From: Bacillota bacterium
Lineage (GTDB): Bacteria > Bacillota > Bacilli > Bu12
Reading direction: 5' to 3'
NCBI GenBank assembly: GCA_014896485.1
Contig: JADBKH010000010.1
Location: 1 to 64,000 of the forward strand
DNA: 64,000 nucleotides
The notes beneath the pieces are model-generated. The model was not told the DNA's origin and made no database searches. It worked only from the letters and a program-made list of their open reading frames with translations. A program made the translations under genes and the position numbers. Below, in pieces: positions 6,535-20,400 of this stretch (positions are counted from its first letter, which is position 1; every line of letters starts with the position of its first letter).

Positions 6535-7896
6535 TCAGGAAGCGCCAGCTGCCAGTGCTTTTCGGACGGCTTCGCGCACCGAGGCACAGCTTTCTACGGC
6601 AATACCCTCCACGACAGGTATCCGAGAAGGGACCAACGCCCGATGAAAGCCAAGCCGTTGTGCTTCACGCAGGCGCTGACCTGCCTTGACCACTGTCCGA
6701 ATTTCCCCGGCGAGGCCCACCTCCCCAAAGACGACCAATGCCGGATCGACAACGACATCACGCAAACTGGAAGCGACAGCAACAGCCACGGCCAGATCCG
6801 CAGCCGGCTCGTTCCAGTGCACGCCTCCGGCTACGTTGACGTAGACGTCTTGACTGGCCAAAGGCAGCCCTGCCCGTCGCTCAAGTACCGCCAACAGCAA
6901 GATCAACCGATTCAAATCGATCCCTTGGGCCATCCGTCGAGGTACCGGCAAGGCGCTCGGCGCCACCAAGGCCTGCACTTCTAAAAGCAGCGGCCGTGTC
7001 CCTTCGTATCCTGCAGAGACAACCGAACCGGGCATCTGTGTCGTTCTTTCGGAAAGGAAAAAAGAAGACGGGTTTTCCACTTCGGTCAACCCTTCGCCGA
7101 CCATCTCGAAGACGGCCAGCTCGTTGGTTGCACCGAAGCGGTTCTTGACGGCACGGAGGATGCGAAATTCTTGACGACGCTCTCCTTCTAAGTATAACAC
7201 GGTATCGACCATGTGCTCGAGCAGACGCGGACCTGCGATCTGTCCTTCTTTGGTCACATGGCCGACGATAAAGACGGCGACCCCTTGCTGCTTGGCGAGC
7301 TGCATCAGGCGAGCGGTCACGGCGCGCAACTGCGAGACCGATCCGGGGGCAGAGGCCAGCTGGGGATCGTAAAGCGTCTGGACGGAATCGGCGACCACCA
7401 AGGTAGGCTGCAAGCGCTGTACCTCTGTTAGGGCGGCCTCGATTTCGGTCTCCGCCAGCAGATAGAGCCGCTCGTTGCCTACGCCCAACCGCTGCGCACG
7501 CAGCTGTACCTGCGCCGCCGACTCCTCTCCGGTCACGTAAAGCACCGATCCGCCTCTGGTGGTGATCGCATCTGCGACCTGCAGGAGCAACGTCGATTTG
7601 CCGATACCCGGATCGCCCCCCAACAGGACAAGTGAACCTTCTACGATGCCGCCCCCCAACACGCGGTCCATCTCCACGAATCCACTGCCAAACCGGCGTG
7701 CCTCTGCGCCGCCGACCAGGGTAATGGGTTGTGCCCGGACGGCCTTGACACGGTGGTTGGGAAGCTTGTCCGCTGCTTCTTCCCGCTCTTCCACCAGGCT
7801 ATTCCACGTGCCACAGCCCGGACAGCGTCCAAAGTACCGCACGCTTTGATAGCCACAACTGCTGCAGACAAAATGGGTCTGCGCGCCCTTTGCCAT
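6535..7896 (-). CDS. radA: DNA repair protein RadA (Sms)
   Basis: A 453-residue RecA-like ATPase/helicase acting in recombination branch migration. Domains in order: an N-terminal zinc finger with Cys 11, 14, 25 and 28; the RecA core with Walker A GGDPGIGKST at about 93-102 and the RadA signature KNRFGATNE; and a C-terminal Lon-protease-like domain. The ATG at 7894-7896 is chosen because AAAGGAG lies nine bases upstream and the zinc finger begins ten residues in. In B. subtilis radA directly follows clpC; here two extra genes (MBL-fold and FMN-barrel) lie between them. Confidence 0.96.
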   Translation of the reverse strand: MAKGAQTHFVCSSCGYQSVRYFGRCPGCGTWNSLVEEREEAADKLPNHRVKAVRAQPITLVGGAEARRFGSGFVEMDRVLGGGIVEGSLVLLGGDPGIGKSTLLLQVADAITTRGGSVLYVTGEESAAQVQLRAQRLGVGNERLYLLAETEIEAALTEVQRLQPTLVVADSVQTLYDPQLASAPGSVSQLRAVTARLMQLAKQQGVAVFIVGHVTKEGQIAGPRLLEHMVDTVLYLEGERRQEFRILRAVKNRFGATNELAVFEMVGEGLTEVENPSSFFLSERTTQMPGSVVSAGYEGTRPLLLEVQALVAPSALPVPRRMAQGIDLNRLILLLAVLERRAGLPLASQDVYVNVAGGVHWNEPAADLAVAVAVASSLRDVVVDPALVVFGEVGLAGEIRTVVKAGQRLREAQRLGFHRALVPSRIPVVEGIAVESCASVREAVRKALAAGAS

Positions 7897-7990
7897 CCCT
7901 TGCATCTCCTTTTGGAGGCCTCGTTTGGGGGCGTTGTCGTTAGGATAACGCGATCCTGCTGTCGAAGTCGCGCGAAGGGTGTAACCCTCC

Positions 7991-16966: not shown

Positions 16967-18790
16967 CTAACTGTTTTCTACCTCTCTCCCCTCCGCCTGG
17001 TCCGCCTTGGCTGTCTCTGCTTGGTCAGCAGCGCTTTGAGTCTGGGTTTCGCTCAAACGGCGGTGCGTCCAACGCCGATAGGCCGCACGCTGTTCCTCAG
17101 AAACATCCGCGACAGGGATCAGCTTGTACTGATCCGGGGGACGCTGGGCCAAGGTGACCTCGTAAAAGAGCAGCTCCTCCTGGCGGAACAACCCGATCCG
17201 AACCTGCTCACCCGGCTTGTGATCGGCCAAACGCTTCTGCCAGTTCTCTGGATGCAGTCGAAACCCGTCGATGGTCAACAGCTCATCCCCTGGTGCAATC
17301 CCCACTGCCATGGCTGGCGTCTCTTCCAAAACCGATGCAACGATCAGGTGCCCATGATCGTTGCGCACACGGACGCCCAAGTAGGAATGGGTCTTCTCTT
17401 CCTGTTTGTAACGACGCTCCAACTGCAGTCCAACAGTTGGCAGCACCGTGTCCCACGGCAGTTCTTGGGTGCCATAAACGTATTTGGAGAAAAAGTCGTC
17501 CAATGGTCGGCCCAACAGCTTCTCGACGCTGCGTTCCACCCCATCTTCGGGCACTCCCTGGCCATGTTCGTAAAAATCGGTGTACAGCGTGCGCATCACA
17601 TCGTCTAAAGCGCAGCCGCCTCCGCTCTCACGCTGCAAAGTCAGATCGAGGAGCCACCCGACCAGACATCCTTTGAGATAGTAGGAAATGTGATCGTTGA
17701 CGCGATTTTCCGTGCGCCGGTACTCCTTGATCCAGGTGTCGAAGGAAGACCGGGTGACAGGCTCGTAGCGGCGCCCCGGCGTCTGTTCGAGCCTACGAAT
17801 CAGTTCGGCCATCCCGTCCAAGAAGTGCTCGTCGTCCTCTATCCCGGCCCGGTAGGGCAACAGCTCCGCGTAGTAATCGGTGACGCCTTCGTGCAGCCAA
17901 AGCAGATGGGTGTACTGCTCCCGGGTATAGTCGAAAGCCCAAAACGTCTGGGGCCGGATGCGCTTGACATTCCACAGGTGAAAATACTCGTGGGTAAAGA
18001 GGCGCAACATTTGCCGATACGAGTTCTCTTCCCCAAACTGCCACCGTTCGACGATGATGGAAGTGGAATTGCGATGCTCCAGCCCCCCACCGCGCCGGTC
18101 GCTGAGATGCAGCAAGAACAGATAGCGCGTATAGGGCAGTCCCCCCATCATCTGGGCAGCCGCTTCGATCACTTTGGTAAGGTCGTCGATCAACCGACCA
18201 GGATCGAGATTGCCCTTGCCGCAAACCGCCAATTCGTGGGGAATGCCACGCACTTCGAAGAAATAGGATGCGTGGGTACCGACTTCGACCGGTGCATCGA
18301 TCAGTTCATCGTAGTCGTCTGCCTGATAGTGGCCAGGACCTTCTCCCGACCGCTCCCGAAGGCCGGTCGAAATGTGCCCACCCTGCGGAATCTCTACGTC
18401 GAGCGTCACCGGCTCGTCACGATGACCCACCAGATAGAGAAAGACCGTCGCGCCGTTCCAATAGGCATGGCGATCATCGACATGGCTGGCATGTGTCTCC
18501 AATGCGTGGGCGTAGACGGCATAGCGCACGGTCACCGAGGACACCTGTCCGACCTGCACCTCCCAACGGTTTTTGGCTGTCTTTTCGACCGCAAGCTCGG
18601 TCCCCGAAGCTTGGGCGGTCATCCAGGGGACATCTTGGGCAAAATCGAGGATTTCGTAGGCACCCGGTGTCCAGACAGGCATCTCCAGGAGAAGTCGGCC
18701 CTCTTTGGTGGGTGGATCTTCAATCTGCATGACCACCTGCAGCAGGTGGCGCTGCGGTTGAGCAATGGCGACGTGATAGGCAATCTTCAT
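16967..18790 (-). CDS. M61 family glycyl-aminopeptidase-like metallopeptidase with PDZ domain
   Basis: A 607-residue cytoplasmic-type peptidase (no signal peptide seen). An N-terminal beta-sandwich is followed by the zinc peptidase core with HEYFHLWNVKR (HExxH), the downstream ligand Glu in WLHEGVTDYY and the typical GGGLEHRNS. A PDZ domain lies at about residues 490-560 (SYLGVRVRNDHGHLIVASVL), and the C-terminus is charged and repetitive. Family members cleave N-terminal glycine or alanine. The ATG at 18788-18790 follows AAAGGAG at a rather long 13-base spacing. It is monocistronic, divergent from the plus-strand regulator cassette. Confidence 0.9.
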   Translation of the reverse strand: MKIAYHVAIAQPQRHLLQVVMQIEDPPTKEGRLLLEMPVWTPGAYEILDFAQDVPWMTAQASGTELAVEKTAKNRWEVQVGQVSSVTVRYAVYAHALETHASHVDDRHAYWNGATVFLYLVGHRDEPVTLDVEIPQGGHISTGLRERSGEGPGHYQADDYDELIDAPVEVGTHASYFFEVRGIPHELAVCGKGNLDPGRLIDDLTKVIEAAAQMMGGLPYTRYLFLLHLSDRRGGGLEHRNSTSIIVERWQFGEENSYRQMLRLFTHEYFHLWNVKRIRPQTFWAFDYTREQYTHLLWLHEGVTDYYAELLPYRAGIEDDEHFLDGMAELIRRLEQTPGRRYEPVTRSSFDTWIKEYRRTENRVNDHISYYLKGCLVGWLLDLTLQRESGGGCALDDVMRTLYTDFYEHGQGVPEDGVERSVEKLLGRPLDDFFSKYVYGTQELPWDTVLPTVGLQLERRYKQEEKTHSYLGVRVRNDHGHLIVASVLEETPAMAVGIAPGDELLTIDGFRLHPENWQKRLADHKPGEQVRIGLFRQEELLFYEVTLAQRPPDQYKLIPVADVSEEQRAAYRRWTHRRLSETQTQSAADQAETAKADQAEGREVENS

Positions 18791-18870
18791 ACGGACGATC
18801 GCTCTCCTTTCCAAAGGCCCAGGCAGAGCCAGGGGTATTGTAGTCGATTCGTGGGGGCTAGACATCCTGC

Positions 18871-18899
18871 TTGCCTGTCCCCCAACGGGGGACTATACT
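18871..18899 (+). promoter_or_regulatory. Sigma-A promoter with palindromic operator in the spacer
   Basis: TTGCCT (18871-18876) and TATACT (18894-18899) are separated by exactly 17 bases, and those 17 bases (18877-18893) are a perfect inverted repeat, GTCCCCC-AAC-GGGGGAC. A second inverted repeat, TGTGCA-N7-TGCACA, lies at 18910-18928 in the leader. This arrangement is what an autoregulatory operator would look like, and the first gene encodes an HTH protein. Confidence 0.75.
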
Positions 18900-18940
18900 G
18901 AAGAAAAGATGTGCAAGCATTGTGCACACGGAGGAGAAGG

Positions 18941-19480
18941 ATGTCACTCCTGCGCATCGGAGAAAAACTGATCAGTCCCAGTCAGGTACAGCGCGCCGTC
19001 GACGAGATGCTCCACCTGCGGAGCGCCGGAGCGAGCCAACAGGAGGTTGCCGCGCGGTTCAAGGTAGATCGCTCTTTTGTCTCCCGGCTGGAGTCACTGG
19101 GAGAGATCCACCGGGGAAAACATATCGCGTTGGTCGGCTTTCCGGTCGGCAACAAGGAGGCATTGGCGCGCGTCGCCGAGCAAGAGGGGGTCGAGTTCAC
19201 CCTGCTGTGGACCGAAGCCGAGCGCTGGTCTTTCGTGCGCGACCGGGACCCTGCCACCCTGACCAATGAGGTGCTTCGCCTTACCGGGGAAGTGCGCATG
19301 TACGACGTCGTCGTAGTGCTGGCTTCGGATCAGCGGCTGCGCTCGATCGAACGGCTGCTGGACCGCCAGGTGGTCGGCATCGTCTTGGGCGAGTCTCCCC
19401 TGACGACAGATTGTTTCGTCGATCCACAAGAGCTGCGCGGCGTTTTGCAGATGGTCCGCGAAGAAGGAGCCGTAACATGA
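18941..19480 (+). CDS. HTH transcriptional regulator of a conserved two-gene cassette
   Basis: A 179-residue protein. Residues about 30-58 form a Cro/C1-type helix-turn-helix (GASQQEVAARFKVDRSFVSR). The rest looks like an alpha/beta domain (KHIALVGFPVGNKEALARVA; DVVVVLASDQR; VVGIVLGESPL) that could bind a ligand or nucleotide. The start has a strong GGAGGAGAAGG site. It overlaps the next gene by four bases (ATGA), so the two form an operon. The regulator type is recognisable but no named function is known to me. It interrupts a long minus-strand gene run. Confidence 0.8.
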   Translation: MSLLRIGEKLISPSQVQRAVDEMLHLRSAGASQQEVAARFKVDRSFVSRLESLGEIHRGKHIALVGFPVGNKEALARVAEQEGVEFTLLWTEAERWSFVRDRDPATLTNEVLRLTGEVRMYDVVVVLASDQRLRSIERLLDRQVVGIVLGESPLTTDCFVDPQELRGVLQMVREEGAVT

Positions 19481-20400
19481 AGCACGTCGTCAGTGTCAGC
19501 ATCGGTTCTTCGACACGCAACCATCGGGTCACAGAACGTTTTTTTGGCGAAAGCTTCCTGATCGAACGCATCGGCACCGATGGGAAGATCGACGACGCCA
19601 TCGCGCTGATCCGCGACATGGACGGTAAAGTCGATGCCTTTGGGATGGGCGGTATCGATCTGTACATCGTCAATGGCGACCACCGCTACACCTTTCGCGA
19701 CGCCCGGCGAATCGCTTCGGCTGCCCAAAAGACACCGATCGTGGACGGATCGGGGCTGAAGAATACGCTGGAGCGCCACGTGGTGGCCCAGATGGCGGAA
19801 GATCCCAAACTTTCTCCGAAGGGGAAGCGGGTGCTGATCGTTTCGGCCATGGATCGCTTCGGTATGGCCGAAGCGATGGTCGCCGCCGGGGCGCACTGCA
19901 CGTTTGGCGACTTGCCCTTCGCCATCGACGTACCGATGGGCCTGCACAGCCTCAAGACCTTGGGGTTGCTCTCCCGGATCGCGTTGCCTATCGTGACACA
20001 ACTGCCCTTTACGCTGGTCTACCCGACCGGCACCGCCCAAGAGCAAGAAAGTGTCCCACGTTTTCAGCGTTTCTACGAGGAAGCCGAGATCATTGCGGGA
20101 GATTTTCACTACATTCGCAAATATTTGCCGGCGCGCATCGATGGAAAGACCATTTTGACCAACACCACAACATCACGCGACGTGGCCCTCTTGCGTGAAC
20201 GTGGGGCAGCTTGCCTGATCACCACGACGCCGCAGTGGGAAGGTCGCAGCTTTGGGACGAACGTGCTGGAAGCGCTGCTGGTCGCCTCTGTCGGACAGCG
20301 ACCGGAAACGATCGATCCCCAAACCTACGAGGAGTGGATCCTGCGTTTGGGGATTACACCACACGTGGAACGCTGGGATCGGGAGGCAGCGGACGCGTAG
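19477..20400 (+). CDS. Conserved protein of the 'quinate 5-dehydrogenase-like' family, function uncertain
   Basis: A 307-residue protein beginning KHVVSVSIGSSTRNHRV. The N-terminal half contains KVDAFGMGGIDLYIVNGDHR; the second half has a Rossmann-like segment (GKRVLIVSAMDRFGMAEAMV) and ends about residue 300. Related proteins in thermophilic Firmicutes are often labelled quinate 5-dehydrogenase, a name with little support that I can see, and no shikimate or quinate genes are nearby. Translationally coupled to the upstream HTH regulator. Its stop is only 4 bases from the convergent dusB stop, with no terminator between. Treat as a conserved hypothetical. Confidence 0.75.
   Translation: MKHVVSVSIGSSTRNHRVTERFFGESFLIERIGTDGKIDDAIALIRDMDGKVDAFGMGGIDLYIVNGDHRYTFRDARRIASAAQKTPIVDGSGLKNTLERHVVAQMAEDPKLSPKGKRVLIVSAMDRFGMAEAMVAAGAHCTFGDLPFAIDVPMGLHSLKTLGLLSRIALPIVTQLPFTLVYPTGTAQEQESVPRFQRFYEEAEIIAGDFHYIRKYLPARIDGKTILTNTTTSRDVALLRERGAACLITTTPQWEGRSFGTNVLEALLVASVGQRPETIDPQTYEEWILRLGITPHVERWDREAADA

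Follow-up and report, generated by a model that had tools for sequence, protein, structure and literature searches.

In the 64,000-nt stretch of Bacillota DNA analyzed here (the window), two plus-strand genes interrupt a run of minus-strand genes, raising the question of what this pair does and how it is controlled. The first gene (18941–19480, + strand) starts with an ATG at 18941 behind a strong ribosome-binding site, ends with a TGA at 19478–19480, and encodes a 179-aa helix-turn-helix regulator, referred to here as HTH. The second (19477–20400, + strand) encodes a 307-aa protein, for which QDH serves as a convenience label. Its ATG at 19477 overlaps the HTH stop codon as ATGA, an arrangement that, judged from the sequence, suggests translational coupling and bears out the initial annotation, which had described coupled plus-strand genes amid genes of the opposite strand.

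A joint search for both proteins across Firmicutes, proposed in the same annotation, revealed a conserved pair. Of 399 Bacillota genomes sampled, 290 contained a QDH ortholog and 234 an HTH ortholog; when the lists were compared by eye, 232 of these 234 also carried QDH. In the window's own class, only 14 of 301 genomes harbored QDH. Relatives' proteins aligned to those of the window with identities of 40–52% (HTH) and 52–58% (QDH). At 80 named QDH loci, HTH was located directly upstream in 67 cases, and the gene for an acyl-ACP-reductase-type thioester reductase (TR), the usual third cassette gene in relatives, directly downstream in 51. The canonical order is coaX-dusB-HTH-QDH-TR-greA-lysS, on a single strand throughout; in Bacilli it is folP-folB-folK-dusB-QDH-greA-lysS, and both HTH and TR are absent. 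A literature search on a dusB-greA-lysS operon found nothing relevant.

In the window, the pair is flanked by minus-strand lysS, greA and an M61 peptidase gene on one side, and by dusB, folK, folB and folP on the other. As the pair in relatives forms a colinear series with dusB and greA-lysS, usually with TR behind it, what had been taken for a self-contained cassette is a long-standing resident of this block that was inverted locally, lies beside the M61 gene and has lost TR, which was not found in the window genome by one query and profile searches. The M61 peptidase (16967–18865), which carries a PDZ domain, is encoded divergently to the cassette, between the QDH block and greA, and lies outside the conserved neighborhood in relatives. 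In a QDH tree, the window protein branched deeply, apart from the Bacilli group, and grouped weakly with one non-Bacilli sequence.

QDH was also seen in records labeled candidate division NPL-UPA2 and Armatimonadetes (L114, L115), so either its range extends beyond Bacillota, or transfer or misbinning has occurred. Several genomes carry a second, diverged QDH copy (L147–L162) whose surroundings are unrelated; in some cases UPF0047/DUF3786 or AIR-synthase genes are neighbors. Deducing a function from these copies was rejected, their neighbors (SfsA, UPF0047, AIR-synthase, cytochrome b, AdoHcyase) being unrelated.

Together with the operator and the partner enzymes described below, we consider it reasonably probable that HTH–QDH is an ancient autoregulated Bacillota operon, with HTH acting as an autorepressor through positions 18910–18928 and governing a small acyl-thioester regulon, and with QDH binding a related ligand or working beside the pathway. 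A rather unlikely alternative regards QDH as a housekeeping protein of the dusB-greA-lysS/folate neighborhood, e.g. a tRNA- or cofactor-related enzyme, to whose operon HTH and TR were added later. It would fit the wider distribution of QDH compared to HTH or TR, the retention of its position even in Bacilli that lack both, and the situation in family f59, where QDH remains at lysS and HTH has gone with an aminotransferase-TR fusion. However, genomes with HTH or TR nearly always possess QDH, diverged QDH copies occur in unrelated places, and the predicted QDH fold is nearest to thioester/acyl-ACP reductases.

For the proposed autoregulated operon, the region upstream of HTH offers a likely control site. 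A consensus scan identified a σ70-like promoter (18871–18899, + strand; 9 of 12 consensus matches), consisting of a –35-like TTGCCT (18871–18876) and a –10 element TATACT (18894–18899) separated by a 17-nt spacer. Two inverted repeats pointed out by the initial annotation, one making up the entire spacer and one in the leader, are both present in the sequence. The leader repeat, TGTGCAAGCATTGTGCACA, is the probable operator: a 19-bp dyad of the form TGTGCAAG-CAT-TGTGCACA (18910–18928, unstranded), directly 3′ of the –10 element and spanning the expected transcription start. Upstream regions of relatives contain TGTRCACA-N4-TGTGCACA, likewise directly 3′ of the –10 element, and the general form across window and relatives is TGTRCACA-N3/4-TGTGCACA (19–20 bp). 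Scored with an operator model built from relatives, 18910–18928 was the top match in the 64 kb (18.5 bits, the next reaching 8.0); Markov copies of the window gave a maximum of 17.2 bits in 40 trials.

Among the 64 testable cassettes, 52 have a 20-bp operator scoring 14 bits or more (with a model built in part from the same genomes), compared to 35 of 1600 random stretches; the operator itself may be present in some of these stretches. Seven further cassettes, including those of Thermoanaerobacter and Thermoanaerobacterium, have the one-base-shorter, 19-bp version, and 19-mers of at least 18 bits occurred in 1.42 Mb at these seven cassettes only. Conserved in one form or the other, the dyad, which spans the expected transcription start, accompanies 59 of the 64 testable cassettes. 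In 24 genomes, the 20-mer was nearly restricted to the cassette, other matches mostly being at the level of a reversed-pattern control. The operator was not found at Bacilli QDH loci, which lack HTH, and in f59, where HTH and QDH lie far apart, it accompanies HTH and is missing at QDH. Nothing relevant to the operator was found in the literature.

The repeat within the spacer (18877–18893), GTCCCCCAACGGGGGAC, reads GTCCCCC-AAC-GGGGGAC, with perfect 7-bp arms and a 3-nt loop, and the initial annotation had put it forward as the operator. That it serves this function, besides or in place of the leader dyad, is improbable. By itself the palindrome is unremarkable, as nine perfect inverted repeats of this type (7-bp arms, 3-base loop) were counted in 64 kb vs. 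~5.8 expected; its striking point is only its exact fit into the 17-nt spacer. The annotation had also proposed conservation of the 17-base palindrome upstream of relatives' genes as a check, and no comparable C5...G5 palindrome was found upstream of the operator in any of 52 relatives' leaders, although the closest host relatives in the searched set share no more than the class, leaving room for a lineage-specific site. Moreover, regulation is already explained by the leader dyad. The palindrome may be a chance repeat or such a lineage-specific site, and nothing points to the latter. An RNA element at the locus was considered and rejected, Rfam giving no match in the window.

The HTH protein itself shows just weak, generic helix-turn-helix matches. 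An AlphaFold model (pLDDT 88.3) predicts an N-terminal helix-turn-helix and a C-terminal alpha/beta Rossmann-like domain, for which a fold search returned no significant solved-structure match. What marks the protein as a candidate autorepressor is the combination of a helix-turn-helix, as seen in these matches and the model, with a dyad that is conserved at its own promoter in 59 of 64 cassettes. On this comparative basis, autoregulation through the leader dyad is strongly suggested; of the annotation's proposal, autoregulation thus stands, and the choice of the spacer palindrome, which the 52 relatives lack, as operator is not supported.

QDH proved more elusive in sequence searches: neither Pfam nor NCBIfam contained a model that matched it, even with E values up to 1 allowed, and it gave no significant PDB sequence match, either as a single sequence or as a profile. 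In a Foldseek search with its AlphaFold model (pLDDT 86.9), the top solved match was 9e4u, a thioester-reductase-related domain of the carmabin pathway (E = 1.6e-5, TM 0.52), and the cyanobacterial acyl-ACP reductase 6jzq, listed lower, had the second-highest TM (E = 1.7e-4, TM 0.49); TM values of about 0.5 are borderline. Other fold matches were mostly Rossmann proteins with lower TM. The modeled fold is nearest to thioester/acyl-ACP reductases, yet QDH has no NADPH motif and apparently no catalytic Cys: GxxGxxG occurs in 8 of the 129 rows for QDH, compared to 63 of 65 for TR, no Cys is invariant in the QDH alignment, and the only column with Cys in more than half of the rows (67 of 129) is, by hand alignment, not at the equivalent of the reductase catalytic Cys, a position that Asn262 occupies by hand alignment only. 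As profile comparisons of QDH (129 rows) with TR (65 rows) yielded no match, also in global mode, homology between the two is not claimed. QDH must serve some function independently of TR, because it occurs alone in Bacilli and TR is absent from the window genome.

That QDH is a true quinate/shikimate 5-dehydrogenase, a label quoted in the initial annotation, rightly doubted there and possibly stemming from the Shikimate_DH (PF01488) match of the neighboring TR, is hardly credible: QDH has no Pfam, NCBIfam or significant PDB sequence match, none of the 50 listed fold matches is a shikimate dehydrogenase, and no aromatic-pathway genes were seen in the conserved operon. A literature search on the label found nothing relevant.

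TR, in turn, matched the thioester-reductase part of PigE (2e-68, under the equivalog cut-off), the cyanobacterial acyl-ACP reductase model TIGR04058 (6e-39; 134 bits vs. a cut-off of 449.7) and, in PDB, 4ppm and 6jzq (5e-27 for the latter). Of 65 TR rows, 63 retain GxxGxxG and 60 the active-site Cys motif; the roles of these motifs in such reductases have been described (PMC9743570, PMC9594044). TR combines the sequence match, the GxxGxxG motif and the catalytic Cys of acyl-ACP/thioester reductases. According to lists compared by eye, 229 of 234 genomes with a TR-family member also have QDH. At some Syntrophomonadaceae-type loci (L055 4389–5516, L101–L103 and L120), a 376-aa protein takes the place of TR; it has no Pfam or NCBIfam match and resembles a degenerate TR in which the nucleotide motif is missing. 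One locus (L189 4769–6605; G666, genome 84% complete) has HTH directly before TR, with no QDH between them, and is the single locus seen with HTH and TR together and QDH missing.

A connection between HTH and reductases of this type extends to two families, f59 and f152, in which the HTH gene lies near a gene for a class-III aminotransferase-TR fusion. PtTamH, which has the same domain order, converts acyl-ACP to fatty aldehydes and then to amines (PMC9594044). In two f152 genomes (L187 2127–4806, L188 2107–4800), the fusion is encoded 3′ of QDH and is preceded by its own operator copy, the distance to the ATG being 17 and 37 bp. In f59, the operator is found with HTH and the aminotransferase-TR gene while QDH sits elsewhere. 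Where HTH is missing, so is the operator.

In the window's own genome, another 19-mer also scores 18.5 bits; it lies at L197 7955–7973 on another contig (C64; region 7193–7973), with 12 bp separating it from the ATG of a FabG-like gene. The product of this gene qualifies as a 3-oxoacyl-ACP reductase (TIGR01830, 300.7 bits vs. a cut-off of 297.75), and the gene is convergent with one for a stand-alone PigE-type class-III aminotransferase. As the region was examined on account of this aminotransferase, the site is partly a post hoc find. A search of the genome with the strict operator pattern had returned the window site as the sole match, the FabG copy being missed because it reads TGTGTACA and the pattern demands TGTGCA.

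We infer from these observations how the operon might work. HTH probably binds 18910–18928 as a dimer, and the bound protein would block initiation and so repress its own transcript, QDH included. The alpha/beta domain of HTH is probably a metabolite sensor, and the signal is probably an acyl-thioester or a product of it, because the other genes with an operator encode reductases of acyl thioesters (TR, aminotransferase-TR) or of beta-ketoacyl-ACP (the FabG-like protein). QDH would bind a related ligand or work beside the pathway, rather than carrying out the acyl reduction. In the window lineage, loss of TR and inversion of the pair would have left HTH in control of QDH and, probably, of the unlinked fabG-like gene.

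A wider, frankly tentative possibility is that a phylum-wide, undescribed regulator, combining a helix-turn-helix with a Rossmann-like sensor and using its own operator code, controls acyl-ACP reduction to aldehydes or amines in anaerobic Firmicutes, and that QDH represents a new, catalytically remodeled family of the acyl-ACP-reductase fold that senses or channels the same substrate. In any case, QDH occurs in ~73% of sampled Bacillota genomes, yet has no Pfam, NCBIfam or PDB sequence match, and its usual label is unsupported. The conserved operator, recurring before aminotransferase-TR and fabG-like genes, makes an unnoticed acyl-ACP-reduction regulon in mostly anaerobic Firmicutes a directly testable hypothesis. 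The conserved operon is undescribed and merits follow-up.

Among known systems, cyanobacterial acyl-ACP reductase (AAR; 6JZQ, TIGR04058) is matched in sequence by TR, which retains its Cys and GxxGxxG, and the QDH model bears a borderline resemblance to its fold. In contrast to AAR, however, TR falls short of the TIGR04058 cut-off (134 bits against 449.7), QDH has neither detectable sequence similarity to the AAR-type TR nor GxxGxxG nor an invariant Cys, and no aldehyde-deformylating partner was seen. The transaminase-thioester reductase fusions PigE, PtTamH and KecF resemble the f152 and f59 loci, where the HTH gene or the operator is linked to an aminotransferase-TR fusion with the domain order of PtTamH (PMC9594044). 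Unlike in those systems, the surroundings of the f152 and f59 fusions showed no gene cluster for pyrroles or alkaloids, the match is under the PigE cut-off, and the window genome lacks the fusion.

Compared to the fatty-acid repressors FapR and FabT and the redox repressor Rex, HTH matches no such Pfam or NCBIfam family, its fold search gave no significant solved match, and its operator is unlike the Rex consensus. It nevertheless shares with these regulators a small size, a ligand-type domain, a dyad at its own promoter and a probable link to acyl-ACP enzymes. Rex, in particular, couples its DNA-binding domain with one of the Rossmann type, the same layout as that predicted for HTH.
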